NCBI GenBank assembly: GCA_005281725.1
Contig: SSBO01000012.1
Span: 15,453,075 to 15,517,074 of the forward strand
Reading direction: 5' to 3'
DNA length: 64,000 bases
Source: Wuchereria bancrofti
Lineage: Eukaryota; Nematoda; Chromadorea; Rhabditida; Onchocercidae
In this document: positions 6,145-56,170 of the stretch, one piece after another
Position numbering within the stretch: the first letter of the stretch is position 1
How the letters are laid out: every line of letters starts with the position of its first letter
Notes under the pieces: generated by a model
Database searches by the model: none
Told to the model about the DNA's origin: nothing
The model's input: the letters and a program-made list of their open reading frames with translations, nothing else
Made by a program: the position numbers and the translations under genes

Positions 6145-9100
6145 TCAATCATATCGATCACCTCGTGGATATCGTTTCGTTAGCTGCAGTTCTTCGAGGC
6201 ATTGCCCCCGGGTATCTTGTAAGGGTATCGGCATCTGTCCAACGCAATCGTGAGTCTCACGACGACAGCCCGGACGTTCGCGATGTCGCACCAATCGAAT
6301 TAAGTCAGGATCAAAACGTGGTGACAGTAGTCGATATCCAGGAATCTAGAATTAGCAGTTTTGAACTGAGAATGTCCACCAAGCTGGCGCAGGATATTCC
6401 ATATGAACAAGCTGCACGCTCTTTTAAAAATTGAATGGATTTTCATAAAAAATAAGTTTTTCTTGTAAAACTTTGATTACTACCACTTATTTTGCCATTT
6501 CCATTTTATTCAATTTCAAATAGAAATCTAAACTTTTATCGCGAATCACATGCCAAAACTCACTCTTTGTTCCACATCGTCAATGAATGGTCTCATAGCC
6601 CGCGATTCAATCCAGTGCTTATATTCCGCATGAAAGCCTCGTGGATCGCCTGCATAATCGTGCAGAAATTTCTGCACTACTCGATGTACAAATATATATT
6701 GCATTGGCGTTTCGATACAAAATGGTCTTTGAGAGCGTAGTATTTGCACTGCTTTTTGCACGCAGCGCTGCAACAATGATTCTTCATTTTGTTTCTGACG
6801 TAATCGTGATCTTATCAATATTAGAATCAAAATTACTTACTCAATTTGTGAGTGCCATTAAATCCAAGTTGAATTCTCAAGTAAATGAGCAGCCGGTAGT
6901 TGGCTAACCTTGTAAGCCGGTCCTTTGAGCAGGTAGGCGATGCAGATTTCAGCAGCAACCAGTGTAGCCGATCGACTTATTCCCAGATGACAATGTATGA
7001 CTGTTGGATAAGAACAGTTGCGAGCTAGTCGTAAGAGTTGCAAAGGTAGCACTACGTTGTCTGAATTATTCATATCACCTTGCCAATGCTCAACACGTAA
7101 CTGTAAGGGTTCAAATATACCCGAAATTAAGAAAGTTAAAAAAATGAAAGGTCAATCTGAAGTAGCCGTAGGAACCTTCATTTACAATGACTATTATATA
7201 ATATCTTTTCATCCAAAGTCTTGAGGAATTTTAAATTTAATAAAATGTTAATATTATATCAGTTGAGGACAAACTAAATGCAAACTTTATCGCGTCCAGG
7301 TCCAATCACAATCAAATATGTAACACGAAACAACGGCAAGCGAAATTTGTCAACGGCTGAATTGATAATTGTCAATCCATAATAGGTTATTTGATCTCCA
7401 GTTCTTCTATTAAAAAAAAAATCTCATTCACGCTCAGCAGATAATAAGAAAGATTTACTTTCTTTTATTCAGAACAATCCAATAAAATATAAATCTCATG
7501 GAAAGTTATCATGTAGGACTGATGAACAGTGTCATTTACGAGTAAAGAGAAAGTTTAAATCATGAAAACATAAAAGTTATTAGTATTGAATCACTGTTCT
7601 ACTTCATAAGATTTGTAATAAGAATAAGCGCAAAATCACGGCATAAAAATTGCTAGCCTCGGCCAGTACTGAGCACATCTGTTATCTTCTTTTCGACTTA
7701 TGAGCATGAAGATATAAGGTGACCTTTCTTGCCAAACCATGCGCCAGAAATCGCCAATTGTATTTTCCATGGGTGCCTGATGGAAAAAATAAAACTTACT
7801 TGTATTTTTCAAACTCTTCTCCACTTACGGATTCAGATAGATGAAATAAGACAAATTTATACCTGCGTAATGATAAATTTATTAAAGAGCGGTGCACCTT
7901 GAATATAATTCGCATGAATGAAATCATTGCTTGCAGTATTTGGATAGGTCAGTACTACACGAGTTGAATCACGACATTTGATTCCTATGTGACATTTCAA
8001 GTTTATAACGTTATTCGCAAGTAAATTTCAAATGAAAACACTGTGAAAACAAAGAATTAACTCGATTTCTTTTTCTATTCAAAAATCTCCTAGCATTCTT
8101 TTTTGGCTTTTAATTAGATTTTTTACTTTTATTGCGAGACAAATCAAGATGTTCATCGAATGCATGATGGGTAAAAGCCATGTGATTCACTTGATTATCC
8201 AGAATTTCAAACCGATGTTCCATGCCACCAGTCATACTTCGAATAAAAACCTGTTTTCGACTTCCAATCAGTGCTTTCCACATCACAATATTATTGTAAA
8301 CTAAATAACTATCTTCATCTACTAAGCCTGATATCTTTTAACAGTTGCTATCCCATTAACAGACAGTGGTATCAGGTGAGAAATATCCCCCCCTGAAACT
8401 CTATTTTGTCGATATTTTTTTATATATTTCTTTAAATACTTCTCTTATCTCTTATAAAAAGCTTAATTAGTTGCATTACCAAAGCTTAGCAAACGAGTAG
8501 CTGACCTCTATAAGCTTTCTCCAAAAAATCTAATTCCTTTTTCTCAAAATAGTACATGAAAATTACATCGATCTTGAAGTCGAACTCGATCTAAATCATT
8601 CTGCACATTTTGAATGAATTCATTCATACGCTTTGTGATTTCTATTCCGTCCCAATCCTTCATGAAAAATTCTTCTAAATTACTATTCCTATAATTTAGT
8701 TCATCATTCTCCAACCATTTACTCAGTTCCTGCAAATATTATCTGAGTAATAATTTTCGCTTTAAAAGTGCTTTTTATGGAAGATTCGGATTACCAGCAT
8801 TCGCGTAAGTCGTTGATAGAGAATGAAAGAGCGCGCATCCTCGAGATTCACTTTCTCGTTTCTTGCGAAAAAATCGCTACTAATGCCAATCTGAAAGAGA
8901 CCTATATCAGTACACTAAATTAATTAGCCTGGATCATAGATAAGCCAGGGCGCAATAGATCAATCACTTATTTTTTTAACAAATTATATAATGCACCAAA
9001 ATATCGAAATAATGCAGAACCATACTTTGACGGAAATGGATGACTGCTTGAGAAGAAATTCTCATTTATCAAAATCTAATAAAATTCAATCAATGCACAT

Positions 9101-16902: not shown

Positions 16903-19900
16903 ATGGAGTCATCGGATTCATCATCTGACGATGAATTAGATTTCAAGGACAAAAGTAGGAGAAGTTTCATTTATTTGTTTTAATAATTCTATGTCTTATT
17001 TTTGTCTTCTTTCTTCATACTATTCTAAGACTTTAAATAACAATATTAGTAATTTACAGTGTATGAAAATTTCATCTATCCATATGTTACCAAAACATAT
17101 CAAAGCATTTTTGATTACAGAAACAATCTTTACCGGAACCAGATATGACCACCATGTTTCATTCCGGTCATCAACAGCAACCACTGCATCTTCACAGCAG
17201 CAGTCACAATCCGGGCTTAAGAAGGGTAAGCAGATGAATGGGTCACGCTTCAGAGTAAGTTTTTTTATAATTATTAGAGAAAAAAATATGATATACGACG
17301 AACTGGCTGCAGATATCCTATTTATGATTCAAGATGGATGTAAGTGTTATAGGATCAGACTCGATATTTTAGTTTGGCTTTAAATCCGTCAGACACTACA
17401 ATCTTTCTGGAAGAATGATGTATAGATTTTTTATTAGCAACAAATCATATCCAGATAATGTTAAATAATTTGGACTATTAGCATAAATTAGCAGTATGTT
17501 TTAAGGATCAGAAAAACGCACATCGCAAAACGCACATTTCCTTCACATTGCGCAACAAAAAGGAAACTTACTTTTTGCAGAATTGCATAGATATCAAAAA
17601 CGATACGATCAAATATCAATGAGATCATAGTGATTAATTGAATTTGTAAGATAACCATTGAAAAAAACTGGTAACTGATAATGATGACAGTTCCGAACAA
17701 TCGAACAAGATTTTTGATATTGGTTTCGAGAATAATTGTTAACGATTCTTTTCCTCGACAGCTCCATTTTTAATCTTCATTTGATTAGTAGTGAATAAGC
17801 GCTTTTAAGATGTCCGAGGCTGAAAGACTCTCCATTAAACAATTACTGAAAACTTCCCGTGAAGAGAAAACTGCTTAAAGAGTTGGTTTTTAGTTACTTC
17901 TACTACTATCTGATGACACTAATTCACAGTTGAGCAAAGGGCGTTGGTAATTTGTGAAGCAGTAATTAATTACATATCAAATAGTTTGCTGTTGAATTAG
18001 TTAATTTAAGAGCGATATGTGAAATTAGTGATGATGGATTGAGCAAAATTGGTGTTGCTGTTAGACTAATGAAGAATAGAAATTAACAGATTTGTTATCA
18101 GACGGTTAGTAAGTACACAGAACACAATGGTTAGCGAACAAGAAATACTTTTTGAGGGATTTTAAAACTTGGTACCATAAGGAATTGAAAGAGATTGCTA
18201 GTCGGTCATATTTTAAAAAGGCTTTGCTAAGTCTATTGGTTTACGTTTGGTATAGGCAGAAAATTACATTTGTCTCTGATTTGAACATAAACTTTCTTAC
18301 TGAAACATGGCGTTCACTTGTTTATATGCGTTCACGTTTGGATTCATACTGCAGAGAGAAGTTGAATGCATTATAACGTATTTTACGAGAAATCGGAAGG
18401 CTTATTTGATACAATTAGGTTTCATCTTGTAGAAGTGCAGAAAAGTCCTTATCTTCCAATAAAAAATGATAATTTTCCTTCAATGGAAGCGTTTTCCATC
18501 CCAATTTATATTTTTTTACTCATGGGTAACCCTCAATTTTCAGGCACTTCATAAATTTATTTTTTATGAAGTAAATCCTTCCTATTTCAGCCTGAATCAA
18601 AAACAACACAAAATAAGCTAACTATTTTACAATTTCGTTTTCTTGCCTCAACTTCATCTCGACATGATCATGTTTTTAACCTAACTGTATTTTTTACTGT
18701 TAGACTCATTATAGTTAATTAATGTTCAGAAGTAAGAACTGAATTTTAATCATCAATGATCTTAATTTTTGATCCTTTTTAGCATAAGTTTAAAGAGGCT
18801 ATTCAGAATTTTAATCTGTCATTTTTTTTAAATCGAAAATTTCCTCTGCCAAAAAAGTACCAAGACAGTAAAGATTATGTTATTATCCATCAATTATCTC
18901 GAGATTCTACTTTAACTAAGACAAAAGAGTAAGGATGTATGAAAATTTCGGAATATCCTGAATTTTATTAGCAGAATAAATACAAGAGCATTTTAAAATT
19001 ACATAATTGAGGATGGAACAAATATATCTTACAAAGATGTTTCAATTATTCATGTGCTCTTTCTAGCTGTTAAAATAAGGTATCGGTAAGGAAAATCCAT
19101 GATGAATTGTTTAGTACCAAATAATCGATTTTTTCTTTATTGTCAGTCAGTGATTTTTTCTTTTTTATTATTTAAGAGAAAGTTTGATGAAATCGAGCAT
19201 GCATTTCTCAATCAGTTCTTTTTATAGAGTTCGAATATGTTTCGACTGACTGTAGTCTTGAAAAGTTATCAAGTAATAATAATAGAATAAGTTAAAATAA
19301 GTTGAGCAAAGGTCAAACTAATTCTAAAAAAGATTTGACAAAAAAAGGCTTAACCAAGATGAAATCAGCAGAAGTTGATATATTTGCAGTCATTTTGTTC
19401 TTCTTCCTTCTTTCTTTTTGTAACAATCTAGTAATCGTTTATAATAATTCACAATTAATTAAGTAAAATCTTACATATTTTATTTGTTTATTGAAATCTT
19501 AAGCAACATTCTTGAAGTTATGAATGGTTTCGTAAAACATTCATTGAAATGAATTTTAGATATTAGCTTGACAATTTTGATAATTTAGCATTATCAAACA
19601 TACCTACTAAACAAGTAAATACATTGGGTACGAAAAGATAAGATGAAATGTACTTATTTTGTGAAAAATCAGTATACCTTCAGTTATGAACTAATTAAAA
19701 CAACGAGATGCGAGAACCGCTTTTTGCTTTTTTGATATTAAGTTAATAATATTAAAGTTTGATTTTATTTCTCAATAATTTCTAATCATCAATTTTTGAA
19801 CAGGAACTATACTTATGAAAAAATGAAAAAAGTGAGAATATAAGAAAAAATAATGATTGGAAATCGTTATTATCACATTTTGTATTGCAGATCGTCCCCG

Positions 19901-25900: not shown

Positions 25901-28900
25901 AGGATAGTTATATTCTCCGGATGCAATTCGGTAGAGCGGGAAGAAGTAACAAAATAATATAAACGACTTTTGAGATTCCAACAGTGTTGATTTAATTTTA
26001 TTTACTCGAACGTCACTTTTTTTTTGTGGTTACCGTGCAAAGTGATTAATCTATCAAGCAAATTTCACTTACACTATGGAATCTAATTGAAATGTGAAAT
26101 GAAGTCCAACAGTCAAACTAAATCCTTCATCATCAAACTGCGCTCATAAAGAAAATGTTCACGTCTTATGGATATTTTAGCGTTGTCAATCTTCTTAACC
26201 TTTCTGGCTTCATTCCTTTGAATTTAATAATGTCTTGAATGCTGTAGCAGAGGATGCTAAGTCATATTTTCCTATAGATGCTCCAAAGAATTGATCTATT
26301 TTATTAAAGGAATGATTATAGGTAACTCGATAAGTAAAAGTAATATTTGCCAAATAAGTGATTCTGAGTGGTTATCAGCGTGAAATAGAAACATGTGCAT
26401 ATTCCCCAGTAGTAAATAATTGTTTAGTTGTTAGAAAATATTCAATCATACAAACTACAATAAGTTAAGTTTTAATGTTGAGAATTACTGTTATTCTTAA
26501 GTTATAGATAAGTTAGCAAAAAAAAATAATCAAAATAAATCAAAGTGAAGAATGGCAAATGGATAAGTGAGCAGCAAAGGAAATGAATGTAACACTCGGT
26601 AGGATGAGATGACGTTGGTAGATTTTAGATATGAAAAGTAGATAAGTTTGTGAACATTGATGCCTTTACTTATTATCGTCACAGCTTGTACTTTTAGTCT
26701 TTGGTCATCAAAGCATTTTCTTTTATTTTCCTCCTTAGGCGGATTAAATTGCTTTAGTTTTTATGTTGTCATGTTGTTGAAGTAAAATCAGTTAGTATTG
26801 AATTCTAACTTATTTTGAAATCCATTTATTTCCAATAATAATTTGTCGAAGTAGAGATAACTTTTCAATGTTGTAAAGATCAGTTTATGTCAAAATAAGT
26901 TTATTTATTCAAACTCTCACATAAACTCATAAACTTGTTCTAAAGTGGTGCATCTTGTCAAAATATCATGCATCATTTGGTCAGCAAATTTGGTCAAATT
27001 TTTGGCTACATTTGGTCACAAATTTATACAACCATTTTTTAAAATCTAAATTTAAACAGAATTTAATAGATCCATCCAGTTAATTTTTTCTTATCTACCA
27101 TCAGCTGGCTACTATTTTCGACGTCAAAAAGCTTTGTTAATAAATGAATCTAATTCTTACAAATGGACTTGTTAGACTTGCGCTTAACGCGTAAGTGATA
27201 TTATATATTTTCATGGTTTATTCAAAATATTAAAGTTTTATAGAATCTAATAAGGAATTGTAATTCAGAATTGAGGAAAATTGCAGATCTATGAAAAGCT
27301 GCTTAATTCAAGCAGTTCTCAACGAATTAATCGCATAATATAAATATATCTAAATGCTCAATGCGAACGTTATGAGACACCAGACTAAAGTATCTGAGCG
27401 AATACTTTTTCTAGATGCCAAATCTCCGAAGTATTATGACAGTCCTAATTGATCGGACTTACATTTAAAAAGATTTAGAGGATTTTTGAGAAAAAAATCA
27501 AAAAGAGTGAAGTCTCAGCAATCTTAAATGTTGGCCATAGTTCTTTATAAAATTTATTACTGTTGCAGAACTCTTTCATATGTACCATTCATCAATTATT
27601 ATTCCCTTTTTATTTATAAAAATTTTTTGCCTTTATTAAAGTCAATTATAGTCATCGACTTTACAATTATTAACTTTACACTGATTCTTGTAATTAAGCA
27701 AATTATTCATTTCAAAGTGTTGCAATAAATCAGAATGCCTTAATTTTCGATAAGTGTGCAAAGTTTTGCTCATTTTGTTGAATCAGAAAATTTAAAAATC
27801 CCTCTTGAAATTTAACATATTTCATCAATGTAAGCTTAAGTATTTTCTAATGATGGAAATGAAGCTGTATGAAGTCAGAAAGTATAAGTGGTTGATGGAA
27901 GGAGTCTGAATATAGCTGCTTAGATCATCGTTATCTGATTTACGAAATTCTTGGAGACAGATAAATTTTCTGCAATTTTGCTGCTTAAGTTCCGCTGGAA
28001 TGTTTTTGTGGTAATTTAGTTGCAGTAGTAGTGGCGGAAAGATAAGGATGGGTACATAGCAACACACACACACACTACACTTTCAAGCATCTATTGACTT
28101 TTATGCTTGGTACTTTTTGAAAGCTTTGACTTATTGAAAACGACGTTATGGCTTATGGAGATGAGAAGCAGAGAAGTAAGAATCCATCAAGAATGTCGGG
28201 AGCACACCATCAGCTGACTACCAGGCTGATGATAACTCAATACTTTCTTCCTTTAGAAATCTCCGCTATTTAATCCATCTTTTCATGTAAATAATTTCGT
28301 CCTCTGATGCTGACTGACTGACTGATTGATTGACTGACTGACTGACTGACTGACTGAGTGACTGACTGAATGACTAACTGACTGATTGACTGACTGACCG
28401 AATGACTAACTAACTGATTGACTGACTGACTGATTGATTAATCTGTCCTTATTTGTGCAGAGGCGGTCATTTCTGCTAACATATTAAAAGTAAATGTGAT
28501 AAGTACCACCGTGGTCAGCAAGTAACTGCCCATTCCATTAAGCGTAGAGTAGAAAACTGATCTCTGAGAATGAATTCTCTGAACTTGCAGATGAATTCTC
28601 TGAACTTTCAGAATGGGATTTATCTCGACTTATCTTACCTTTTCATTTTCTTATCTTCCCTGATATCAGTGATAGGATTTGCATTTTTTATTCTTAACTA
28701 TAATCCAATATCTTTTGTAAGAAATTTTTGCATACTCATAGCTATTCAATAAATATATCGTTTAAATAACTGTTTTAAGTTAAAATTTCGTCTCTCCCCA
28801 AGTCCATTCGGTATATAAGTTAGAGCTGTACTTTATCTACAAAAAGTTTTCTGACCTTTCTTCCTGTATTATCTCGAAACAGGTCATCATCCTGGGTCTC

Positions 28901-34767: not shown

Positions 34768-37700
34768 GTGCCAAATAGTTTAAATTTTTTTTATTTGACC
34801 TCTTCGTTTTTAGTAACAATAATGTGTAATATTTTCTCTACTGCTTTATTTCCGGTATTCGGTATTTGTTGTCAATCACACTATCATCCATGACCATACT
34901 TCAGTGTTTTTTCAAATTTGCTAACTTTTTTTTCATATCGTAACAGCGAGAAAAAAATTTTCATTTTAATGAGTCAAAATTATTAGCAAATGGTTTTTTT
35001 TTTTTTTTTTTGCGGTTTCAACCAAATTTAAAAATCATGGCACAGTGATTGCTTATGGGTAAGATTTTAATAAGTACTGTGGAATATGTAAATTTATTTA
35101 CTATTTGGATTTTGTTTTTTTAGCGGAATGAAACGGGTCATTGTCCATGTCACTCTTTAATATTTCGCAAATAAGATTACCCATCATTTCGCTCATGAAT
35201 GTCAATTAATTGAAGTTAGCGTGCGTATGTTAATTCTTAGTTTGTTAGGATTTAGTAATGTGCTGGGATGCAGTCAGGATTGTCTAGTCAATCAGTAAAG
35301 TGCCGGAATATATTTGCCTATATGCATTATCAACGATTCACCTGTTGATGCTTACCACTTTTAAGAATCTGTCCAATCTTTAACCAAACGTAGCGTAGTA
35401 CACGTTTATTTTTTTAATGTCAACACGCTTAGCACTTCGTGTTTGCTATGAATTTCAAATGCTACCGAGACTGATGTTAACTTTTCCACAGTTTCCTACC
35501 ATCTTTTGATAACTGCTTCTATCTTTTTTTAAAAAAGGCTTTTTCTAGACTTCAAATTCTAATGCGAAGAATTTCGAACGAAAATTTCACTCTTTGGAAA
35601 GATAAGATGAATTTTTCTGAAATTCTGAAAGACTATTTGAAATATCCAAATGTTAAACATGCAAATTTTGGATTCTTTCAATTTTTTGTCCGGAGAGCTA
35701 CGCTTCTGGCTCTTATCCTAATCATTTCCAATTTTTAATTTTCAATAGTCGTTACATTGAATCAAATTACATTGAATCAATTTGCATTGTACATAAAAAG
35801 TCACCATGTCTCTTCGTCCTGTTTCATGTATTGACAATATCTGTCATTCTTTTTTTGATGCCCTTACTGATTGTCTCATCTTCACTGTCTTGTCTTCAAT
35901 TTCACTTCTCTAGGCTACAAAATTTGTAACATATTTTTCGCTTGAGCAATAAAAAGTTGAATAATTTTCGATTGAAAATTGATTAGATGCTTCATTTTTG
36001 GTTTCTAAGTTTCATTGCTCGAAGTTAAATTAGACGGCATATCGAGGTAATTCTTTTTTTCTTTGAGAATTCACTTTGAGCCTTGATTTTTTCCGATTGA
36101 AAATCTCATTTGAAGGTGAAGTTTTCCGGTCTTTGTTCTTTCGTCTTCTTCAGGTATACTTGTCGTTATGCATGTATCCTTTACCATCATTGCCATCGTT
36201 TCATTTCAGTTTTGCATTTCTGCGGTACACGCTACCCTTTTTTCCTAAATCTGCAGTTGCAAAGCTACAAATGTGACTTTTGCTGAATCTCCTTCTGCAG
36301 CCAGCATTCCTCAAACTTACTGGAAAATGTTTGAGCAGTTGCAGTCTATTTAATAAAACGTATGATAAATAATTATTATGTATACGACAAATAATTACTG
36401 TGAAAAAATAGTTCAGCTCACGACGTGTATTTCCTTGTCACTCTTAACCAGTATTTTTAAATCAATATGTTTACCACTGCTGGGTCAAAATAAATCCGTA
36501 CACTCGTTCGTTCGTAAATAACAGACAGTTTCGCTATCCATATTTCTATTAGTATTTAATAAATTGAACTTGTATTTATCCAAAAAATGGTATTTCCAGT
36601 CGAATTTAGATCGGTTTCTAACAAAAAGTTTGACCCGAATAAGCACTGGTTAGATCTCATTGCCACTGGGACCGGATCCACTGCGCGAAAAATAAGATTT
36701 AAGCTTCCCTCTTAACATTGGTATCATCTTAAACACAACATCACCATTTTAAAAGTGGTAAGCATGTTAAAAATCAACAAACAGTATTGTAGTGTTGTGG
36801 TGCGACAAATTGTTAACATACAGTGTTTAATTTCTGAGAAAACGAAGGACATAAATGAGGACAATTATATAATGTTTAATGTAAAAATGAAATCCCTTAT
36901 TATCATGGTATAGCTTTTTTAGAATGACATGAAATTAGAAAAGGAAATAAGATATCTTTAAACATAAGATACTAAAGAGTAACCTTCGTTGTAATATTAC
37001 TACCGAATATAGTGATAACAAAATGCTATTTTATCATGAAAAATATAGCAAAATGTATAAAAGAACGATTAAAACAGGACAGCGAAACAAGCGTTACTGC
37101 AGAAACGCTTGTTGGATCAGTAAAACGGAGAAAAAGAGACTTGAAATTCAATTATTACCATAGAACACTGAAATGAATCAAACGAAAATGCCTACATGAT
37201 TAAAATGTGGAATTTTGGGAGGGAATAATTAAGCTCCACAATTACTGAAATAACTAAACACATACTCTGGAGCATTGGCTGCACCAAAATCAAAACTTTG
37301 CTTCAGCCATATCAAAACAAATCAAAATTAAATAGAGGTGGAGAAGGTGCAACTCTGAATATTAATTTCTCATAAAAGTTCTTAAATCACTTACGTCGAT
37401 ACCTCACTCCCCATACTGTGTAAAAAGGATGCAAATAAGGTGCGTATAAAATAAAATATCGCACTTGAAAACAATTCACTTCTAAAAGATGAACAATACA
37501 CCCTCCAAAAGAAGATAACAGAAAAGGATGAGTGCCTTCCGGCTTTTCGAATTTTGAAGTATTTTTTAAATAAAAAATATTCATTTGAATCCAGTGTGAA
37601 ATCCTTAAACTGAAAGCACAGGTAGCGATTTTAGAAAAAAAGGAGAAATACAATTCATAATTTCACCAAAGTTATAATATTGAGAAAAAGAAGCTGAAAT

Positions 37701-38635
37701 AACGTCCTGAAACATCAAACTTAGATTCCGAAGATTAAATGCATCATCAAATAGGACACGTTTAATTCAAATCGAAATTCAGAATCAAGTTGTGCTTCAA
37801 AAGGGTGATGTTAACAAAAAGAAAAATTCAAAAGCCAAGGTGTGGAAAATGTATAAAATCATTTCGAATCACAGGACTTTTAAACTTGAAGTGGTGCGCT
37901 GAAGTAGACTTCCACACAATCATCCAGGTAAGGAAACTCAGCAGTATGATATCTCGTGAATTAGTGCCATGTTGAGAGTTGTGTGCCAGAAGGTAAAAAA
38001 TCTCATAAATCTCATTAATGAAATTCTATTCAAAAACCTCTGCCTATGTAATCTTCAGTTCAGAAGTAAATTCCTGACCTGCAAAGGTAGAATAAAGTAG
38101 AATTTCACAAAAATTATTCCTGAATCAACTTGCTTTGTTGTTAGAAGTTTTTGCTAAAATCTTGAAAGAATCGGTACTATGTATATAAGAAGGTAATGTT
38201 TTGCCAACCACAAAAACAATATAGTGAAGCAAATAAGAAACCAGTCAATATGAATAAGATATTCGAAATAACAACATCAGACTCGATTTTTTGATTAAAA
38301 TCATGATTTACCACCTCAACATTCATTTACTCAGCAAATACTGACATTATATCTGATATAAAAAGAGAGGCAGATTAAGCAACATAATTATCCACATTAC
38401 GTCATTCTAAAAACAAATTATTGCTGTGCAAGAATCATTCTTGAAAGACCTCCATGGCTGGCTTATAATTTCTTGAATAAACTTATTTTCAATAGTATAG
38501 CTTGTATCAAAAACCTAAAATTATTTTAAATAAAGATTTGGAAATGCACAGTAAAATTAGATAAGTCATGGCTTGAACAGACAACAATTTGAAAGTTTAA
38601 ACAAGAAAAACCAGTTGAATAAAATTAAAATGCAA
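34768..38635. other. Gene-free spacer between TSC22 and IER-like genes
   Basis: This segment contains the 3' untranslated region of the plus-strand TSC22 gene at its left and that of the minus-strand IER-like gene at its right. Poly-T tracts occur near 34996. No open frame here has convincing splice sites or a known motif. The two genes converge on this spacer. Confidence 0.5.
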
Positions 38636-40474
38636 CTAACAGATCAATGGGTTACAGGTAATATGTATAAACGAATTAATCTGCTTCGGAGTTTGCTGAA
38701 GTGAAGAAACGCTGGAAACACCTGGTCGGGTGAGAAATTGATCAGCGACAACACTAAGGCCTGAGTTGAACACAGAAATCAAGCCCGTTAACTGACGTTC
38801 TTCAACGCAGCATTTCTTTATACTACATGAAGACGGCAAACGAAGTGCAGATGTTTTACGTTTTCGATGGTGCAAAGGAGTCATTGAACATAACGAACTA
38901 CTTCCAGAATCTCCATTCTCCTCAGTTTCATCATCAGTGGCACATGAATAAACATCATCCGTAACAGATTCTTGAACCACAGAAACAGTTGTGTCAGCAG
39001 AAACTGTTAAACAATCAAAGCCAGAATCTCGACTTAATTTATGCGTTGCGAATTCCTGCTCCACTCCTTTTTCTTTTGTTTGTTCACTAAACAACTGCGA
39101 TGAAATGATGTCTTCCGAGAAATATATATCTGGAAGAGGTGCAGAGTCATTATACATGTGTTGCTGGGTTGTTGCTTCATCCATACCGTACATTTCTGGA
39201 CCAGCAAATGTATACTGTAACGGTGCAAGACGAAGTGTCGAATAACCAAATTCGATTTGTTCCTGTTTTACCAAATCACTACAGTTGCTATCCAAATGCA
39301 TTGGCTCATGACTGAAACAAAAATTTTTAATACTTTGGTGAACTTTCTGAAGAGAAAAAAAAACGACTTATGAAAACTGCTTGACAGTGTTTTAATTTTT
39401 TGGACAAAGGGATAAATAAATGTCAGACACGACCGTAAACACAAGCTAAACAATAAAAAACACATATCACTCTGTTCAGAGTTTGGATTTCTTTCTTTTT
39501 GCTCAAGAAAATGGACTTTAAAACCGGGAAAGCTGCTTGAATTATATTAGAATTTTATTATTGCTATACTGTATATCTGAATAACCTCTAGCTAAACCTG
39601 TTCTGATTAATTAATTAGAAAACTTTCGTGGAAAGCATTTTTAAAAAATCACTTTACTAGATACTCCCACTTCCTTTTCATGATGCCCATACCATACATA
39701 TCTAGGATATATTTTATATTGTATATCTGAAAAAGAAAATTATATTGTATATCTGAACTACTTTAGGGATTTCGGGAAATATTTCCTTACCACTTAAAAA
39801 TCTGTACCAAGACTTAACAATATCTTAAATTGTACTTCACACTTTAATTACACACTTTAAACTATAATTTTGCAACATAAAGCTGTTGCTGCTCTCGTGA
39901 ATTAATCTTAACCCTACTCAACCAATCAAACGTCTTCGATTTCTACCTTTCTCTTCCGTTAAAGTTCAAAGTTCTTACTTTTTTGACAAATCCAGCAAGT
40001 GAGTTGTGTCTTCATCTGCACTTTCATAATCAAAATCATCCATTTCATCCCCTTCGTCATCTACATCAACATAATGAGACGAAGAAAATGTATCCAAAGC
40101 CGGCATAGGATCAGTATGTAGCATCATCATAGAGCTCTCTGCTAGTCTCGGTTCTTCCATCCATTCGGAGCCATTTGCGAACATCGGAAACCTAAAATCT
40201 CTTTAAGGTGAAAATTATTAAGGTTGTTTTTATCACTGAGATTCTTTGAAAAAAGAATTATCCTTGAGAGAAAATATCCAAATGAATAAAGTAAGACTAA
40301 CCTTTTCTGTTCATCACGAGCCCTCCTCAATAAATGCAGAATTAATAAATTCCGATGCAGCTTTGCACCACCCCGTTCACTTTTGGAATTAACCATTTTG
40401 GCGCATGAAAGACGAATTAAACGATTACACACTTCGGTTTCAATGATTTCATCAACATCACTAACTTGAGGCAT
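38636..40474 (-). CDS. Immediate-early response (IER2/IER5-like) protein
   Basis: Predicted nuclear regulator of 353 residues in three exons, 40474-40302, 40191-39979 and 39311-38636, with phases that match at both junctions. The N-terminal block (EVCNRLIRLSCAKMVNSK, then RGGAKLHRNLLILHLLRRAR) matches the conserved IER domain, in which a helix is followed by an RGGxKLHKNLL motif. Exon 2 is very acidic (VDVDDEGDEMDDFDYE). Exon 3 has a basic KRKTSALRLPSSCSIKK patch like the nuclear-localisation region of IER proteins and a hydrophobic C-terminal element GLISVFNSGLSVVADQF. I chose the ATG at 40474 because an ATTGCAG acceptor lies three bases upstream, as expected for a cis or trans splice site; an in-frame ATG at 40513 would add 13 residues. 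Vertebrate IER2/IER5 are intronless, so the two introns are noteworthy. Confidence 0.75.
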
Positions 40475-40477
40475 TTC

Positions 40478-42700
40478 TGCAATATTCAAACATTTACACT
40501 TTGAACTGTTCAATGTCTACACGAAATATATGATAGAATGAAACCTGTCTGAATGTTATGCAATTTCGATTATCTTAAAGGCAATAATAGGGGAATTATG
40601 GCGCAAAAAGCGAGTTTTATTAAATTCACGGATCTGCTCTGCATTAAGCACTGACATACTGTACAGTCTTATGTAACCTCTGACAACTCGGAATTCATTT
40701 CTATGTGATCCTTAAGCTTATAACCAACAAACAACCCAACTCATACCACTACAGCTTTGATTCTTAAAACTCATTGCGCAAATGGTCAATCAATAAGTTT
40801 TCTTAGAAGTGTAATACAAGCTGTAGAAAATTTATTTTTCGAGTGGAAACAGCGGTATAGTAATACAGAATGTTCGTAAATTTCGCAAATTTGTTCCAAA
40901 GAGAACGGTGTAGTGCGGGGAAGTAAATTCATCTACGAGCGAGCCATAGCGAAATGGTCCATCCTGCATGCTTTTTCGAATTTGAGAAGTGCCAAACAAC
41001 CAATGTTACCGACTACACAAATGGTGAGCAATAGGAGACACCAAGTCTATGTACCCGCTTTTACTCCTACCCGGGGGCATTCCGATGAGTTGAACACTGT
41101 TCAACGATAAACAGCTTCTCCACGCAACCTAGCAATTACTCTCAAAGTTTCAGAGCCATCTAAATGCTTGTTAGAGTGTCTCATCACTTCCCTTTTAATC
41201 TGGGAGCATACAGACGTACATTTTGCCATACATGGAACTAATAAAAAAGCATAGCACAGTTAACGGAATCACTGATTATCATATCACTATGACATAACAA
41301 ACGCAGCACTGGCCCATGAGTTGACATGTCAGTCTGCGATGCTAACAAAAGAGACCTCTATGACTCTTTATTCGGGAAATGCTCGGGAAAGCTGTGTAAG
41401 AATTCAGTATGGTGGGTGTGGAAGCCCTACTGGTGGTGTCACGACATCCAACACGCATCTAGCACAGCAGCGTGTAGCTCACTAGGGTGACATCACCTGC
41501 CCAGCATGGTCAACAGCGCCATCAATAATGACTGTGACAAATAAAGCGATTACAAACGACGCAGCAGCAACGCCAATCCGAATTCACACACTCCTGGACG
41601 CTCCGCTCTCTTTCTGCGCCTCCTTTGCGTCTCTCTCTCTCTCTCTCTGACTGACCGAATGGCACCTACGTCAACAGGCAGTCTTATGAAAAGACTGGGA
41701 CGAGCCGCGAGTAACAGCAGAGAGTCGAAGAATGGAACAGACGAAAGTACATGCAACAGAAAGGCATAGAAAAGAAGAGAACGGCGAACTTGAAGAGAGA
41801 CGTAGACATAGAGGGAAGAGACAGATAACGTATTGGGGCTTGGTATGGACGCATGTATCCTCCTCATTCTGCTCTGAGAAGTGCTTGAACGCAGTCCAGA
41901 TGAGAGTGCATTGAGTGGGTGGAGAGCAGACTGATAGACAGACAAAGGAATGAAGGGAGAGAGTATATAGTAAAAGATCAAACATTAAGAAATAGAGCAT
42001 GACATCGGCACCAATTGGCAATATGCCAGTGCACTTGGAATTGCTACTCGCATCATAGTGAGGTCCAATCCCACAATACCGGCTTTAGGCAAATTTGTGG
42101 GAAATCCCGAGGTGAACTATCCTACTTGCCACCTTTGTATCAACATTTGCAGCAGCTATTTCCCGTTAAACTGTGACTTCGAAAGTGGAAGCTTACTTAT
42201 AAGGGCTCTGTTGAGTGAAGTAATATACCTCAACGGCGGCTGCTGTATTGGTAACTGCGACAGGATGACAGAGCCTTGTCATCATGGCAACTGGTCTGAT
42301 GAGTATACCGTAGTTTCCGCGCACTAGTCCAGATTCTTTGTGAATACTCATCAATAACTACCTGAAGGGAGGAAGTACTGATAGAATCCAGGGAATGGTC
42401 ATCTCAGAGACACTGTCGAGTGACACTGTCGCTTTATATCCACGTGTCGCCCAGCTGACCTGTCCATCACGTTTGCTGACAATATGTTATTCTGTTTTGT
42501 GATCAAAATATTGGAAGCTATAGCTAACAGTCGATGTTGAATGAAGGTGGAAGAATTAGTAACGCCTCCGATCAGGCTAATCTTTCCGTGCGATTGCTTC
42601 TCATCGACTTATTACTATTCAGTGTTATTGATAGTCACTGATGTGAACACGCCGAACTTGGAAGAGTTGACCTGGTATGACGAAGAATGAGGGAAGGCTT
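40478..42700. promoter_or_regulatory. GC-richer upstream region of the IER-like gene
   Basis: About 2.2 kb immediately upstream of the IER-like start is clearly less AT-rich and of higher complexity than the surrounding DNA, with many CG dinucleotides around 41560-41720. It holds several open frames on both strands, none with a recognisable motif or splice context, which is expected of GC-richer noncoding DNA. Position and composition suggest a promoter or conserved enhancer block. No specific transcription-factor site can be assigned with confidence. Confidence 0.4.
41630..41648. repeat. (CT)n dinucleotide repeat
   Basis: Nine uninterrupted CT units inside the GC-richer region upstream of the IER-like gene. 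On the minus strand this is a GA repeat, a sequence type often found near promoters, but no functional role is shown. Confidence 0.9.
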
Positions 42701-43684
42701 TGGTGTATATTGTATCAAACAAATTTAAAAGATTGATAGGTACTACTGCGACGAGAAAATTATTTAAATTTAGGAGTGGTTTTATTAAAAACTCACGTCA
42801 TTTGCTTCTTAATGCAGAGTATGTAACTATTTACCGGGGAACCCAATTTTCTAATATTCCATTTTTCAGTTGGTTGAATTATGTAGAAACAATATTATAA
42901 TAAAAGGAAAATCTTTAACAATAGACGACTAGACCTGCTAACCAATGAATCAGCAAGGTTTCTGTTTACTCATCAAGAACATAAGCTGATGAATTTCGAC
43001 GCCAGAATTGTTAACGAAACATGTTTCGTGATGAAATCGGTGAAAGATTCATTAATTCTTGCATCTCGGGGATTCGCAGTTAATTTGGGACTAATTAACT
43101 GTGCTTCCGGACAAAGCTGACACCCTTCAAGAAATTTTAAAGAACCTGTATAATCTAAGATTATCCTTAATAATCAATGTTAGAGTATTAGCTTATAAAG
43201 CACGGCAACGTGTTAGGAGCAGCTGACTGACAGATGAAATCTCCACAGTTACTGTTCTGGAAGAGGCCTAGAAGATCAGAAGTCGAACCGTCTATCTTGA
43301 TCACTTTTTACTACGGTTCTCAAATGATTTTAAAAATTTGATGGTAAAGTCTTCAAATTGAAAAAAAAAGTATAAGAGTTGACCGTAATTCAGCAAGCTG
43401 GAAAAGAAAAAGTTCGGAAATGTACGCGATAATGAATTGAAAACTGCATATATTCCTAGAAGTATACAACAGAGATTGCGAACCGTAGTAATGAGTGAAC
43501 TGCCATCATCTCCAGCCGTGATTGTAACTAACGATTTTAATCGAATTTGACAGGCGATGGAACAGTTTTTAGTCTTTCATAGTTGATAATAGCATAAGCT
43601 TGTTTACTTGTAAAAGAACTTATTTTAATCATTGTCACTTCTTTCCTAAACAGAATGGGAAAAAGAGTTAGGCATTTTACTTAC

Positions 43685-43898
43685 CCCACTTTTAGGATTC
43701 CGAGATGGGCATTGATAGTTAAATCTAAAGACTAATAATTGCTTACTTTTATATAAAAAAGTAAGCACTTCGTGTCGATTTAGATTTGAAGGAGATTTTT
43801 TCCATTGTTGTATCGTATAGAACGGGAAGGGTTTCAGAAAATCATCAGGAAAAGAATTGTTTTGTTGTTGACGTTGGACTGTTATTTCTTGAAAAACA
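43685..43898 (-). CDS. Possible single exon of unknown protein
   Basis: Between a TTTTTCAG acceptor and a perfect GTAAGT donor on the minus strand lies an open frame of 71 codons (phase 2 in, phase 0 out). It includes QRQQQNNSFPDDFLKPF and YTIQQWKKSPSNLNRHEVL and ends CPSRNPKSG. Base composition is more balanced than in the flanks. No family was recognised and no partner exons were found, so this could be an isolated exon of an unannotated gene or a chance frame. Confidence 0.3.
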
Positions 43899-46111
43899 CT
43901 GAAAAACAATTTATCAACGATCATTATCCTAGTAAATAGGGGGATATGAGCTATATTTTCTGAGTTTGATCGAAATAATTTCAGGCTGACATGAAAAAAC
44001 ATCTATCTGCAACATGATGATTTTTTTTTGTTCTAGAAAGCACGAGCTATGCTCTTTTTGAGTTTAGAACCGTTTTCCTTTTGATAGTCCTGATCAAAAG
44101 ATGATGATAAGATGTAGTTAGGTCATTTCTAAATGCTAAACATAGTTTTTACACAAGTTCAGCATTTTCATATTATATTTGCAAAAATGTTGAAATTCAA
44201 GTTTTCAAAAATAATACTTGTTGAAGTTTTGCACAATTAAGATTCATATTGCTAGATGATAGAAGAGTTTGCTATCACAGTGAAAAAAATGATAAATTGG
44301 TAAGAGAATTTCTCTTTGTTCAATCTAGTACAAATAATTTGTTGCTACACCGGAAATGTAGCTTGAGAATTTCGTCAAATATGCATAATTCTTTTTTTTT
44401 TCAATACTTTTTTCCTTCCTTTTTTTTGAATTTCCAAAGGACTTTTGTTTATGCTAAAGCTAAAAAAGGAAAACAACTGTGGAATCAATTAATAAAATAT
44501 TAAGAAGAAATTACACTTATTTTTGAGAAAAAATGATTGTTACGTAGAATGTAAAGTATTTTCCACTTTGATAATATTAACCAGTGACTATTAATGCGTT
44601 CATTTAAGAATAAACACGAAATAAACAAATTATGAATAAAAAATTAATAATAAATATCCTCTGGTGTTCTTATCTCTTTCACCTGTTGTTTTCTGTCTAA
44701 TCACTCAGTGCTCTATTCTGAAAATCAGTAAACATTTTGAAAGTTATCTTTTCAATCTTAATATGTCTTTCCTTTTTTTATCATACCTGAATGATTCTCA
44801 TTACATATCTTAAAAAAAACTCAAAACATATCTTACCCCAAATTAAGGTCAATCTACTTCTGGCTGTGTACACCTCATTAATTTTCAAAAAGCCGTAAGG
44901 AGTTACACTCACGTAAAAAGTTCTGATAAGATCAATTACTACGAGTTTGAAATATACATTTTTTATAAGAATCAAGCATACATTCTCTGCAGAAATGTCG
45001 CACCCACACAAGTAATTCAATTATATAATCAGGTGCAATATATTTTATATTTTACTGATCATGTAAAGATGCAAAACTAATTATTCATCAGGACCAACAG
45101 TTGATTGATCCTGCAGGCAGATCTTATTTTGCGGGTGAAAGAAGATAGCAAAATAAATTTACGGAAGTCGAAAATTTTATCAATGTGCTTCAAGAATAAT
45201 AAACTAGTTAATCAAGTCATTTCTACACTGACAAAATTTACTGGAACAGAAATGCATTCAACACTCAAACATACGACTGAAGTTGAAATTAAAATTTGAA
45301 TTGAGGAAAACCGGTATTTCTCCACTCCTTCTTTGGCGTGCTGCGTATGTTCTCAACCGTCTTTACCTTCTCTCTGTTTCTTCTCTAAAATTTTTTTTTG
45401 TAGTTAAACTTCATTGATAGAAAGGGTTTTAATTTGAGGGAGAATTGTGTGAGAAATAAGTCCAAATAAATTCGTTAACATTAATAAGAGATCAAAAATT
45501 TATCAGTGATAATGATTGATTGTGGTGATCAACTTTCATCGGGCTTTGTAAAATCTCTAATAATAAAGATAACTAGCCAAAACAAGCTCAGGTGCCAACA
45601 AAATTTGACTCAGTCAAGGACTCAACGATTGAGGATACAAACAGATGAAATTACAACAGCAATAAGTTTTTCTACAAAATTCTGCATAAATCTCCGATTT
45701 AACAAAATTTCAGCAAATAAAAATTTGTTCTTACTTTCCAAGTCTCAAAATTTATAATTTGGATTCTTGTTGCTAAGTTTATAGTCGGATCAATTGCGCT
45801 ATGCACTTTCACTCATTTCTCACTTTTAGCATGATTAAAGTGCTATGGAAATTAGAAAACTTATTCAAACTCTCTAATTGATTTGAAAGGAGATACTTTA
45901 TGAATAGAAGGTGTTGCTTCGACTGCTTTGTTAAATGAATTATTATTATTAGTTATCAGCCAAGTGACATATGTTCTCATTTTTGAGCCAGACTAGTGAC
46001 AAATTATGTCATAAATTGAGCCTTCAATCTTTGCTACAAAAAATAAAACATGAACGTCTCATGCAACTGGATTAAATGATGTTTTTTTGTCAGTCATAAA
46101 ATATATACTGA
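43899..46111. other. AT-rich spacer, nothing recognised
   Basis: Short random-looking open frames only, including one near 44249-44503 and one near 45105-45299, without splice context or motif. Confidence 0.5.
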
Positions 46112-47872
46112 ATATGAAACCTTTGCGCTGTCGATTATTACTTCATGCAGAGTTGTGTGACTTTCATTGTAAGTTTTATTAAATCAAAATGTGTTTTAAA
46201 ATTCGTTAAGGAAGTTTTTCGTTTTTTCCATCGGAAATGGCGGAAAAGTGCTAGCAGGAAATTGAGATTATCGTACTTTTAATTATATTAAGCAAAGCAA
46301 ATGAAACAATGGACAAAGGGATGATTTCAATTGAGTTAGAGCAAATGAAAAGATACTGAAACTACAAACTAACTATGTAAATTACAAAGTTCGCCTTTCC
46401 GATTTGTTATCGATTCATATTTTTTCTGCATTAATTCAAATTTTAATTGTAGTAAAATTTAATTTTTAAGAAAAAATTCCTTTGTTTCTTTTTGTTTCAA
46501 TTTCATTTATTCAGTTCAAACTTAATTGCATATTTATCCGTGTCGTAAAACAAGCAAGTTCCAAATTTCTAAAAATTTCAAATCTAACTCCTCATTTCTG
46601 CATCCATTAACTCAGTCAGTTTTCTTTTTTACTCTAATTTATGCTTCTTACTGGTAATCATATGAATAGAATTCCTTCCGTTGATACATTATTTGCTGAT
46701 TTTTTTCTGTTTCGTTTTTAAAACAGGAAACTGGAAGGCGAGCAGTTTCTAATTTTGATAATTTATGTTGAAATTGGTGGTTAAATCATGTCATCAATCA
46801 TTATCTGATATATGGCAAATTGGTAAGTTCGTCCTGTTATATCTTCATTCTTCTTTCTTCTTTCTTCCGATTTCTTTCTCCCAACATCATTTTTCCGCCA
46901 TATCAAGTTCAGCTTTTATCAAGACAAAGCAGTATTTGTCTGACCTATTCCGTAAAATTAAACTAGAATCCGGAAAGAAATCTATTGGCTAGCTTTTTTA
47001 CACCCTTTTAAAAACTTATCAAAACGTTGTTGCTATTTTTTCGTCGTGTATTGTTGTTTAAACTGGTCAAGGAAATATTTTGCGAATATTTTTGTTTTAA
47101 CTCAGTAAAATTGTGTCTTCTTTATCTCGAAATGTTTAAAGGTTTAAGAAACATTTATATTTATATCAATATTTTTCCAAAGAACATCTTAATTTACATA
47201 AACTTCTTTACATACTTTTGCTAAAAATTACCAAACATAGCATTTTTTTAAATCTATTAACACAGTAATAAACGAAATACTGTTTGGGAGATTAGAACCA
47301 TTTCAAATTATCTCTTCTTCAGAAATATTGAATGAATTGACTCTATTGCGGGAAACATAAGTAACTGACTGAGTTAATGGATGCAGAAATGAGGAGTTAG
47401 ATTTGAAATTTTTAGAAATTTGGAGCTTGCTTGTTTTAAGACATGGATAAATATGCAATTAAGTTTGAACTGAATAAATGAAATTGAAACAAAAAGAAAC
47501 AAAGGAATTTTTTCTTAAAAATTAAATTTTACTGCAATTAAAATTTGAATTAATGCAGAAAAAATATGAATCGATAACAAATCGGAAAGGCGAACTTTGT
47601 AATTTACATAGTTAGTTTGTAGTTTCAGTATCTTTTCATTTGCTCTAACTCAATTGAAATCATCCCTTTGTCCATCGTTTCATTTGCTTTGCTTAATATA
47701 ATTAAAACTTTGATAATTTCAATTTCCTGTTAGCACTCTTCTGCCATTTCCGGTGGAAAAAACGAAAAACTTCCTTAACGAATTTTAAAACACATTTTGA
47801 TTTAATAAAACTTACAATGAAAGTCACACAACTCTGCATGAAGTAATAATCGATAGCGCAAAGGTCTCATAT
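46112..47872. repeat. Large inverted repeat with ~510-bp arms
   Basis: Left arm 46112-46622 and right arm 47363-47872 are reverse complements over their whole length with only scattered mismatches. Shared inner ends read CTCAGTCAGTT on the left and AACTGACTGAG on the right; shared outer ends include CCTTTGCGCT on the left and AGCGCAAAGG on the right. The spacer is about 740 bp and carries one 75-codon open frame (46765-46992) with no known motif. A transcript through it would fold into a long double-stranded RNA. I see no transposase and no clear flanking target-site duplication. It may be a foldback-type element or a recent inverted duplication. Confidence 0.9.
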
Positions 47873-49272
47873 TTTCTATATTTTTCCTACTAAGTGATAG
47901 TATTTTTGTTTACATTAAACAGCTCAGTAGCTTACACATATTCATTTAGAAGAATTTTGAGGATACAAATGTATTCTTTTGGTTTCTCTTAACGCCATAC
48001 CATTCTTTCTTCCCTTTATTTTTGATAACCACATTTCAAAATTTTTCTTTATTATATTTTAAAGTTATCATAGAAATTACGCAAAATAAGTGGGAAATGA
48101 TGAAAAAAAGTGCAAAGTGTTTTGCATTTTAATTAATTCTATGATATTAATTCTTTCTTTTATGAAAAAAAAAAAACAACTATTTGATAAGTACTCTTTT
48201 TAAATAGATTTTCTTATATGTAGTAATGAAGTTCACTGAAATCAGAACAACGTTTCACTTCTCTCGTCAACATACTTCTTTTTCAAATTTCGAGGCAGAA
48301 AATATTATAGCGCAGGTATTTTGCAACAAAAATGATTTGTGATTCGCAAATTTTTGAAGAATTGTTAAAGATTTTTAAATTTTCTAAAAGCAATATTTAA
48401 ACATTCCTTATCAAGTCATAATAAAACAAATCATGTTTGTCTACAAATTTTTTATTTAATCATTCATTTTTAAATAAAAGACAGTTACTGCATACTTACT
48501 TTTCATGTTGATATCTTTGATTATGTCAATCACTGTGACTACGCTACCGTCAGGGATTTCAACACATCGAAAGCTTATGATACTCACATCTCAGTTTTCT
48601 GCAAAATTCAGAAAGTGATATGTATCATCAAAATATCAGAAGTACATCTTCACGGTAATCATGTTTCCATAGCGACAATGCAGTATTGATGAGATATTTG
48701 ATGAAATAAGAGAAAATCATAAACTGTGGGAAAAATGATTTGGACAACATACTGTATGGTTGCGGTACTTCAGCGAAATTATTGATGCCACAATGAGAAT
48801 TTGTCATGTATGTTTATTATATTAAAACAAAGTTTTGTTGAAATTCGATTCTTCACAACAATGACTGCTTATTTTTTTTCTTTAAATCAAACATTCAGAA
48901 ACATTTGACAATTATTCAAATTCAAATAAGAAATTTACAAGTCATTATCTAAATTTATGTTCTGTTAGTTTCACTTGAACTAAGTGGAAAACAAAAATTT
49001 TAACTTTATTTTAAAGAAAATACCTCATAAATGATTGGATGAACTTATTTTGTCTTACGTATCACAATAATGGAAAAATTCCAACAATCTGCAGTACAGA
49101 CTGTAAAAATTGTTTAACTTTACTGAGATGACGAGAAGTACAAGATTAAAATTAAATTAAATATTTTACGAAAAGCCAAGAGGTCGGAAATTTTGAATAT
49201 TTCGTAAGCACAAAACTAATTGAAATCGGCTAATTGTCATTTGATGTCTGTTGTATATCTAAAAGGCGGTTG
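47873..49272. other. AT-rich spacer, nothing recognised
   Basis: No supported exon. The 3' part should hold the promoter and any trans-splice site for the gene starting at 49273, but no specific element can be identified. Confidence 0.5.
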
Positions 49273-54605: not shown

Positions 54606-54928
54606 TACAGATAATTTTGTATAGGCTAACTACGAGTATAGGATGAAGCAGAAGAAATAAATGAATACGTAAAACAAGTAAAGGATATAAATGAAAGGGA
54701 ACGAATGAGTAGTATGCAAGACCAACGAATTGAAGCTGCCGGTCCTCAAAGACTGACCCAGACAAAGGGCATTTGGTGGGCATTGGCTTACAGCAAGCAA
54801 ATGATTACAGTGAAGAGCTGTCTATCGAATGATCTTTATTTTTTACATGGGTTTAACATATCTTAGTTGCTTGTAGGAATACTTAGATTAGAAAAGTTTC
54901 TAAAAAACTTTCAACGTGTTAAATAATG

Positions 54929-54962
54929 CACACACACACACACACACACATACACGCACACA
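54929..54962. repeat. (CA)n dinucleotide repeat
   Basis: About 11 uninterrupted CA units followed by interrupted CACA-type sequence. Confidence 0.9.
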
Positions 54963-55687
54963 TACTAACAACTCTAACACTCCATAGTGTGCAGACAAGC
55001 TTGCAAAATGATTGCCTGTATGACATACAATTTTGAAACAGTTTTATATTTGTTTAAAGAATATTCAATTAAAACAATCTTTAATCTTATAATTTAATAA
55101 AAATTTATTTTGACATATTATAATTCGGTTTTTTCGACACAGACAGCCTTCTAGATGTATCCTCAATCCAAACACTGACATCCCATCAGATACATCTTAG
55201 TGCGCCAAAGATGCATTCGCGATTTTCGTTATACACATGTGATGCCTAGTGCAGGATGTTAAACAAACCACCACCTTGTGCCAATGCAGGCTCAACCTCC
55301 ACTTTTAGGCAAATCTAAAAGAGAGGCATCCCAGGAAAGGAGCTCAGATAATAATCTTGAAATTAATACGGTGAAATTACCTTACTCACTAAGAGACAAC
55401 TTTAAAGCTAACTCCAAACCAAACTACCTCATAGGTTCCTGTCTTGCAACACTCTGCAATTCATCAAAAATAACATCCAGCAGTCCCTCGCAGAATGCTG
55501 TAAGTTTCCAAAGATCGGTTCAATGAATCATTGCAAGAAAAACAATTTTTCACTTTGCATTTAGTAAGCTTCAACAATAAAAACTTCGGGATATCAAAAT
55601 AAGTGGTGGATTAATATGGCACAAAAGATTCAGTCATGCGCACATTCCGACGACCATAGAGGTTTCTACAACCTTTGAAAGAAGTAC

Positions 55688-56170
55688 ATGGATCAATATG
55701 TCACAGCTCTCTCCTCAGCTCTTCCACAGATAAACCCTTCATCATCAATCGATGGTCTAAACATGTCCAATCGTGCAATTAAAACTCAGCAACAACACCT
55801 GAAAAAAATCAAGATCAGTGTCTGCAGAGCCGTCATACTGTCTACTCTCCTGAGCGGATCTGAATCTGTCGCCACCATTACACAACCACGTGACAATATT
55901 ACCATGCTCGAAAAAGCGGAAATTATCAAGATAGAGGCCATGTTGGATAGGTCGAGTCTTCAGAATGTAAGACTACCATCTTTATGAAATTTAGTTCTGT
56001 GGTGAACGGCAACAGATGTGTCCTTAAAAAAGTAGAAAGACTTTCTGCAACATTCTCTTTTCTGGACACATCGATTTGTTGTCAGTGGTCCACTCTACTT
56101 CAAATCGAGAGATACACCATCCATACCGCTGCTATCTTTTTGAGAACGCATGTAGGACCTGTTTAATGGA
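55688..56170 (+). mobile_element. Possible decayed LINE reverse-transcriptase tail
   Basis: A 99-codon open frame contains VCRAVILSTLLSGSESVATI, close to the YRAVVLxTLLYGxETW block found near the end of the reverse-transcriptase region in many non-LTR retrotransposons. The tyrosine and tryptophan of that block are replaced. The frame then closes and homology-like sequence, if any, shifts frame. Composition is more GC-rich than the surrounding DNA, as often seen for old transposon sequence in this window. No endonuclease domain or poly-A tail was found, so this is at most a remnant. Confidence 0.4.

Follow-up and report, generated by a model that had tools for sequence, protein, structure and literature searches.

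A 511-bp inverted repeat in Wuchereria bancrofti and the opposite orientation of its spacer in a diverged homologous contig

What kind of history leaves a nearly perfect inverted repeat, half a kilobase on each side, in filarial DNA where no gene is recognised? The repeat considered here lies in a 64-kb stretch of the Wuchereria bancrofti genome, hereafter the window, on C12, a 24.14-Mb contig in an assembly of 86.5 Mb and 108 contigs. The original prediction described two near-identical arms of recent origin or under ongoing gene conversion, and offered a foldback-type mobile element or a source of double-stranded RNA as explanations. In this report, we describe the repeat and its surroundings, compare it with a second contig that carries part of the same locus, and weigh the explanations that fit the two sequences.

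Structure and content of the inverted repeat

The inverted repeat is real. Two arms of 511 bp each, reverse complements of one another with 15 mismatches and no indels, enclose a spacer of 741 bp, and a gap-free match of this length at 97% is far beyond chance. The features of the locus, including those shared with a second contig, C53, are as follows:

46111..46621, plus strand: the repeat's left arm (511 bp); gap-free, with 15 mismatches, against the reverse complement of 47363-47873

46622..47362, unstranded: spacer, 741 bp, without a recognised gene; its matches are itself and C53 only, and Pfam is blank in six frames

47363..47873, minus strand: the repeat's right arm (511 bp), which in C53 runs straight on into the right flank

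46622..47235, minus strand: part of the spacer that is opposite in orientation beside the right arm of C53, where C53:1063-1605 is the reverse complement

46231..46308, unstranded: patch in which 9 of the arm-arm mismatches (15 in all) are concentrated, interpreted as unconverted; scan and permutation P values are given below

47886..48643, unstranded: adjoining right flank common to the window and C53 (C53:2130-2854 and 2964-3007)

The repeat finder drew the arms slightly wider, at 46099-46621 and 47363-47885 (523 nt, 96% complementary, 741 nt apart), and BLASTN aligned the same inverted pair without gaps at 504 of 523 identical positions. The outermost 12 bp of these wider arms hold 4 of the 19 mismatches, and because C53 agrees there with the right side only, we take the duplicated block to be 46111-46621 and 47363-47873. 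These limits fall within one base of the 46112-47872 originally reported, and the description of arms of about 510 bp as near-perfect reverse complements is confirmed. The 15 arm-arm differences, counted by hand, comprise 12 transitions and 3 transversions.

The arms are the sole inverted pair of at least 40 nt listed within the window. A wider search for inverted repeats covered 94 kb of C12 and the 23.5 kb of C53; in the 94 kb of C12, the arms are again the sole pair of separate arms of at least 60 bp at E <= 1e-5, the two further rows being imperfect self-pairing palindromes of 67 and 92 bp.

A six-frame Pfam scan from about 38.0 to 58.0 kb found no match in the arms or the spacer, and its single match, to IER, lies outside the repeat. 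The longest stop-to-stop frame in the element is 76 amino acids, in agreement with the earlier statement that the spacer holds no recognised gene; the Rfam search of the window found no match, and the tRNA search found none in the repeat. The match to IER (immediate early response protein), at 40316-40426 on the minus strand, is weak though above the cut-off (E 2.2e-6); on the left side of the repeat, no recognised coding sequence lies closer than this one, which is about 5.7 kb off. Elsewhere in the window are a CTGA microsatellite of 32 x 4 bp (28310-28437) and, on the minus strand at 6858-7151, an open frame with a motif that by eye resembles a dual-specificity phosphatase active site.

A contig with the spacer in the opposite orientation

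The locus has one other representative in the assembly. A search with the arm found three places, namely both arms and C53:1606-2129 at 89%, whereas the spacer found itself and C53:1063-1605 at 84% and no others, and the whole element found two loci, the window and C53, itself counted, in a nucleotide search that passes over very common words. The 2.5-kb left flank (43600-46098) gave only self matches in the assembly, including a 67-bp self-palindrome.

C53 is an unplaced contig of 23.5 kb with 4 N. Rightwards from its arm, it keeps the order of the window between 47363 and 58284, in gap-separated blocks at 78-95% BLAST identity; three extra short matches (73%, 89% and 80%) either break this order or fall outside the window. 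Leftwards from the arm, the spacer runs in reverse, C53 1605 down to 1063 corresponding to window 46622 up to 47235, and the right arm of C53 joins the spacer end that the window joins to its left arm. The two contigs share the right arm and the right flank, and the spacer next to that arm is opposite in orientation; both orientations are seen with the same outer flank on the right side only. Judged by this alignment, the right-hand side of the locus has a diverged homologue in C53.

The spacers of the two contigs differ by 28 substitutions in 543 aligned sites and by 6 length differences (54, 7, 7, 1, 1 and 1 bp). The match of C53 to the window stops at C53 1062, at the end of a dispersed repeat inside which the contig begins and for which at least 51 matches are listed, itself included. 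In the 7 copies compared, the last 547 bp begin TGTCGCCA, and the match ends TTTACA in 5 of the 7. The DNA upstream of one copy, L013, encodes an integrase zinc-binding domain (E 1.5e-8), together with an integrase core match that falls below the cut-off, on which grounds we read the repeat as the 3' end of an LTR-retrotransposon-like element. One arm is found in C53, and the contig starts in this retrotransposon-like repeat within the spacer, ahead of any left-arm position. Two further features of C53 were observed: a dispersed repeat of about 775 bp at C53:3146-3919, between matches to window 51188 and 51199, with about 40 other genome places listed; and two identical, adjacent 1.6-kb direct copies at C53:15444-17043 and 17169-18768.

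Over six non-arm blocks, excluding the two gappier blocks 54878-55200 and 55452-55698, the window and C53 differ at 268 of 4158 sites (6.4%); the six include the spacer, with 28 of 543, and the adjoining right flank at 47886-48595, with 47 of 693. Exons of asparaginyl-tRNA synthetase on contig C9 have PDB entry 2XGT, the Brugia malayi enzyme, as their best match, with 103 of 106 residues shared by hand count, as fits a close relative of that species but probably not the species itself. C12 (24.14 Mb) is X-sized and therefore probably the X chromosome. The X of B. malayi, at 24.9 Mb, exceeds its other chromosomes in size, and the Y was incompletely recovered, with 64 putative Y contigs (PMC7181701), while the left-over contigs of the B. 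pahangi assembly are thought to include haplotypes, pseudoautosomal fragments and Y fragments (PMC7330237). We expect that C53 is probably a Y fragment of the same locus; it may instead be an old duplication that lies elsewhere. That it is a plain allele we consider unlikely, given the 6.4% divergence and the presence in C53 of dispersed repeats of its own that are absent from the corresponding places in the window, and also because the X is reported to carry very little diversity in both B. malayi and B. pahangi (PMC8575316), an argument that presupposes that C12 is the X. The window is not close to either end of C12 and is therefore probably not within a counterpart of the B. malayi pseudoautosomal region, the last 2.6 Mb of the X (PMC7181701).

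To the left of the repeat, a search with the 10 kb at 36099-46098 brought up another unplaced contig, C100, which matches the first 754 bp at 86% and a 102-bp stretch at 80%, in a listing of two matches only from which the query's self-match is absent. These stretches (36099-36852 and 37119-37220) correspond to C100 8460-9169 and 8094-8192, and C100 is perhaps a second Y-like fragment.

Divergence of the arms and the origin of the flip

Arm against arm, 15 of 511 sites differ, a smaller share than the 43 and 45 of 509 that separate the two arms from C53 (Fisher P 1.3e-4). At these 15 sites, C53 has the left-arm base at 8, the right-arm base at 6, and neither at 1; it is about equally close to either, and therefore neither arm is clearly its orthologue. 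Nine of the 15 mismatches fall within the 78 bp of 46231-46308 (P 0.0028, for an interval chosen after the fact). With position and width left free, the scan P is 0.0048, and permutation of labels among 51 informative sites gives a scan P of 0.014 and a runs P of 0.030. Inside the patch, all three sequences (both arms and C53) lie at roughly equal distances from one another (9, 8 and 7 of 78), and outside it 6 of 433 sites distinguish the arms, as expected for an old duplication that has been mostly converted. The distance of the patch from C53 is unremarkable, its 8 differences being reached by 19% of 78-bp non-arm intervals, and the patch therefore does not have the look of a mutation hot spot. 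The clustering suggests that patchy gene conversion homogenised most of the window's arms, with P values that are modest and come from 15 sites. Within the original proposal of recent origin or ongoing gene conversion, it is the homogenisation of the arms that gains moderate support (clustered mismatches, P 0.005-0.03, n = 15 sites).

We favour, with a probability of about 55%, the reading that the locus is a small inverted duplication and a passive recombination substrate, in which crossover between the arms flips the spacer and conversion homogenises the arms, leaving two homologues opposite. The proposed steps are:

(i) The inverted repeat would predate the split of the C12 and C53 homologues.

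(ii) Crossing over between the two arms would then have flipped the spacer in one homologue.

(iii) Non-crossover exchange, i.e., gene conversion, would have kept most of C12's two arms alike.

(iv) The 741-bp spacer would thereby come to lie in opposite orientation in the two diverged homologues, C12 and C53.

The arrangement of C53, with right flank, right arm and then the spacer backwards, is as one arm-arm crossover would give. From what is observed (the repeat, the opposite spacer beside the right arm of C53, the low copy number and the divergences), we infer that such a crossover caused the flip, that gene conversion has acted, that a second arm exists on the chromosome of C53, and that the inverted duplication has no function of its own. 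Counting against this reading, the start of C53 falls within the spacer, in the retrotransposon-like repeat, and a search with the arm locates one arm in that contig. Taken whole, the arms show no significant excess of distance from C53 over non-arm DNA (43/509 v 268/4158, P 0.09), which counts against an old duplication, since that might predict an excess. Speaking for the favoured reading, the outer 120 bp of the arms stand at an unusual distance from C53 (16/120, reached by 1.1% of 3444 overlapping non-arm intervals, in a post hoc comparison).

The main rival is somewhat less probable. It takes the order in C53 (spacer, one arm, right flank) as ancestral and supposes one staggered-break inversion that left copies of the arm at both spacer ends. 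One event suffices, C53 shows one arm only, and arms younger (15/511) than the split from C53 (43-45/509) are explained without gene conversion; the mechanism is also described as prevalent among the inversions of Drosophila subobscura (PMC5080602). This account, however, predicts an even spread of arm-arm differences, yet the differences cluster, and the lone arm of C53 may merely reflect a contig that ends in a repeat. Two one-step stories, arm crossover and staggered-break inversion, fit the orientation, and the patchy mismatches moderately favour arm crossover. A more far-reaching possibility, that the segment flips recurrently in living filarial sex chromosomes with both orientations segregating on the X or Y, we hold to be improbable.

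The other explanations fare much worse. A hairpin RNA from the inverted repeat is possible but unsupported: 511-bp arms at 97% would pair well, and the predicted single-strand fold of the spacer (DNA parameters) is closed by the inner arm ends, as in any such repeat, but an Rfam match is absent from the window, and the spacer in C53 is broken by the retrotransposon-like repeat and carries 6 length differences. That the repeat is kept because its transcript folds into a long hairpin feeding small-RNA pathways is, in our view, very unlikely. Slightly less credible still is an assembly artefact, whether a fold-back read or a mis-join, in the window or in C53. One assembly supplies both sequences, C53 is short, unplaced and contains 4 N, and inverted repeats may be joined wrongly; the 15 arm differences, however, are gap-free and transition-rich, and C53 can be aligned over both junctions with divergence of its own. 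A fold-back read in particular appears unlikely because the 15 differences include no indels, the spacer is unique apart from C53, and C53 has the other arrangement. Foldback and other elements with long terminal inverted repeats have long inverted arms around a non-coding centre, as this locus does, but we reject a mobile element as the least probable explanation of all because dispersed copies were not found in the assembly (3 places for the arm, 2 for the spacer and 2 loci for the entire element, itself included): the genome search with the arm that had been proposed for such copies gave only C53, which carries arm and spacer at the same right-flank position, and, as originally noted, no target-site duplication is evident at the printed element ends (by eye, informally).

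Comparable systems and implications

Recurrent inversions between inverted repeats are known in human, with arms of 1.6-24 kb (PMC3961182), and in yeast, where a 24-kb flip/flop region inverts recurrently between 4-kb inverted repeats (PMC9731477). The likeness lies in near-identical, homogenised inverted arms and a segment known in both orientations, whereas the W. bancrofti locus is far smaller (511-bp arms, 741-bp spacer), with two sequences compared and one arm seen in C53. In D. subobscura, staggered breaks are prevalent and inverted duplications lie at the breakpoints (PMC5080602); the likeness is a duplicated inverted piece at both ends of an inverted segment, and the W. bancrofti arms differ in that their mismatches cluster as if converted. 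Titles and abstract openings in the literature on inverted repeats in filarial worms, including sex chromosomes and siRNA, describe no such locus, and a search on hairpins and ADAR gave no papers. Inverted-repeat flips and staggered-break inversions are already known; new here is the opposite orientation of a spacer in a diverged homologue.

If the favoured reading, an arm-arm crossover with conversion, is not right, the locus would be an ordinary inverted duplication within non-coding DNA. If it is right, the locus would represent a very small inverted-repeat flip between diverged homologues, probably the filarial X and Y, and half-kilobase repeats would suffice to produce orientation differences and conversion tracts where X-Y exchange has ended. 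Were recurrent flipping also true, the segment would offer a naturally occurring readout of recombination within one chromosome in regions without X-Y exchange.
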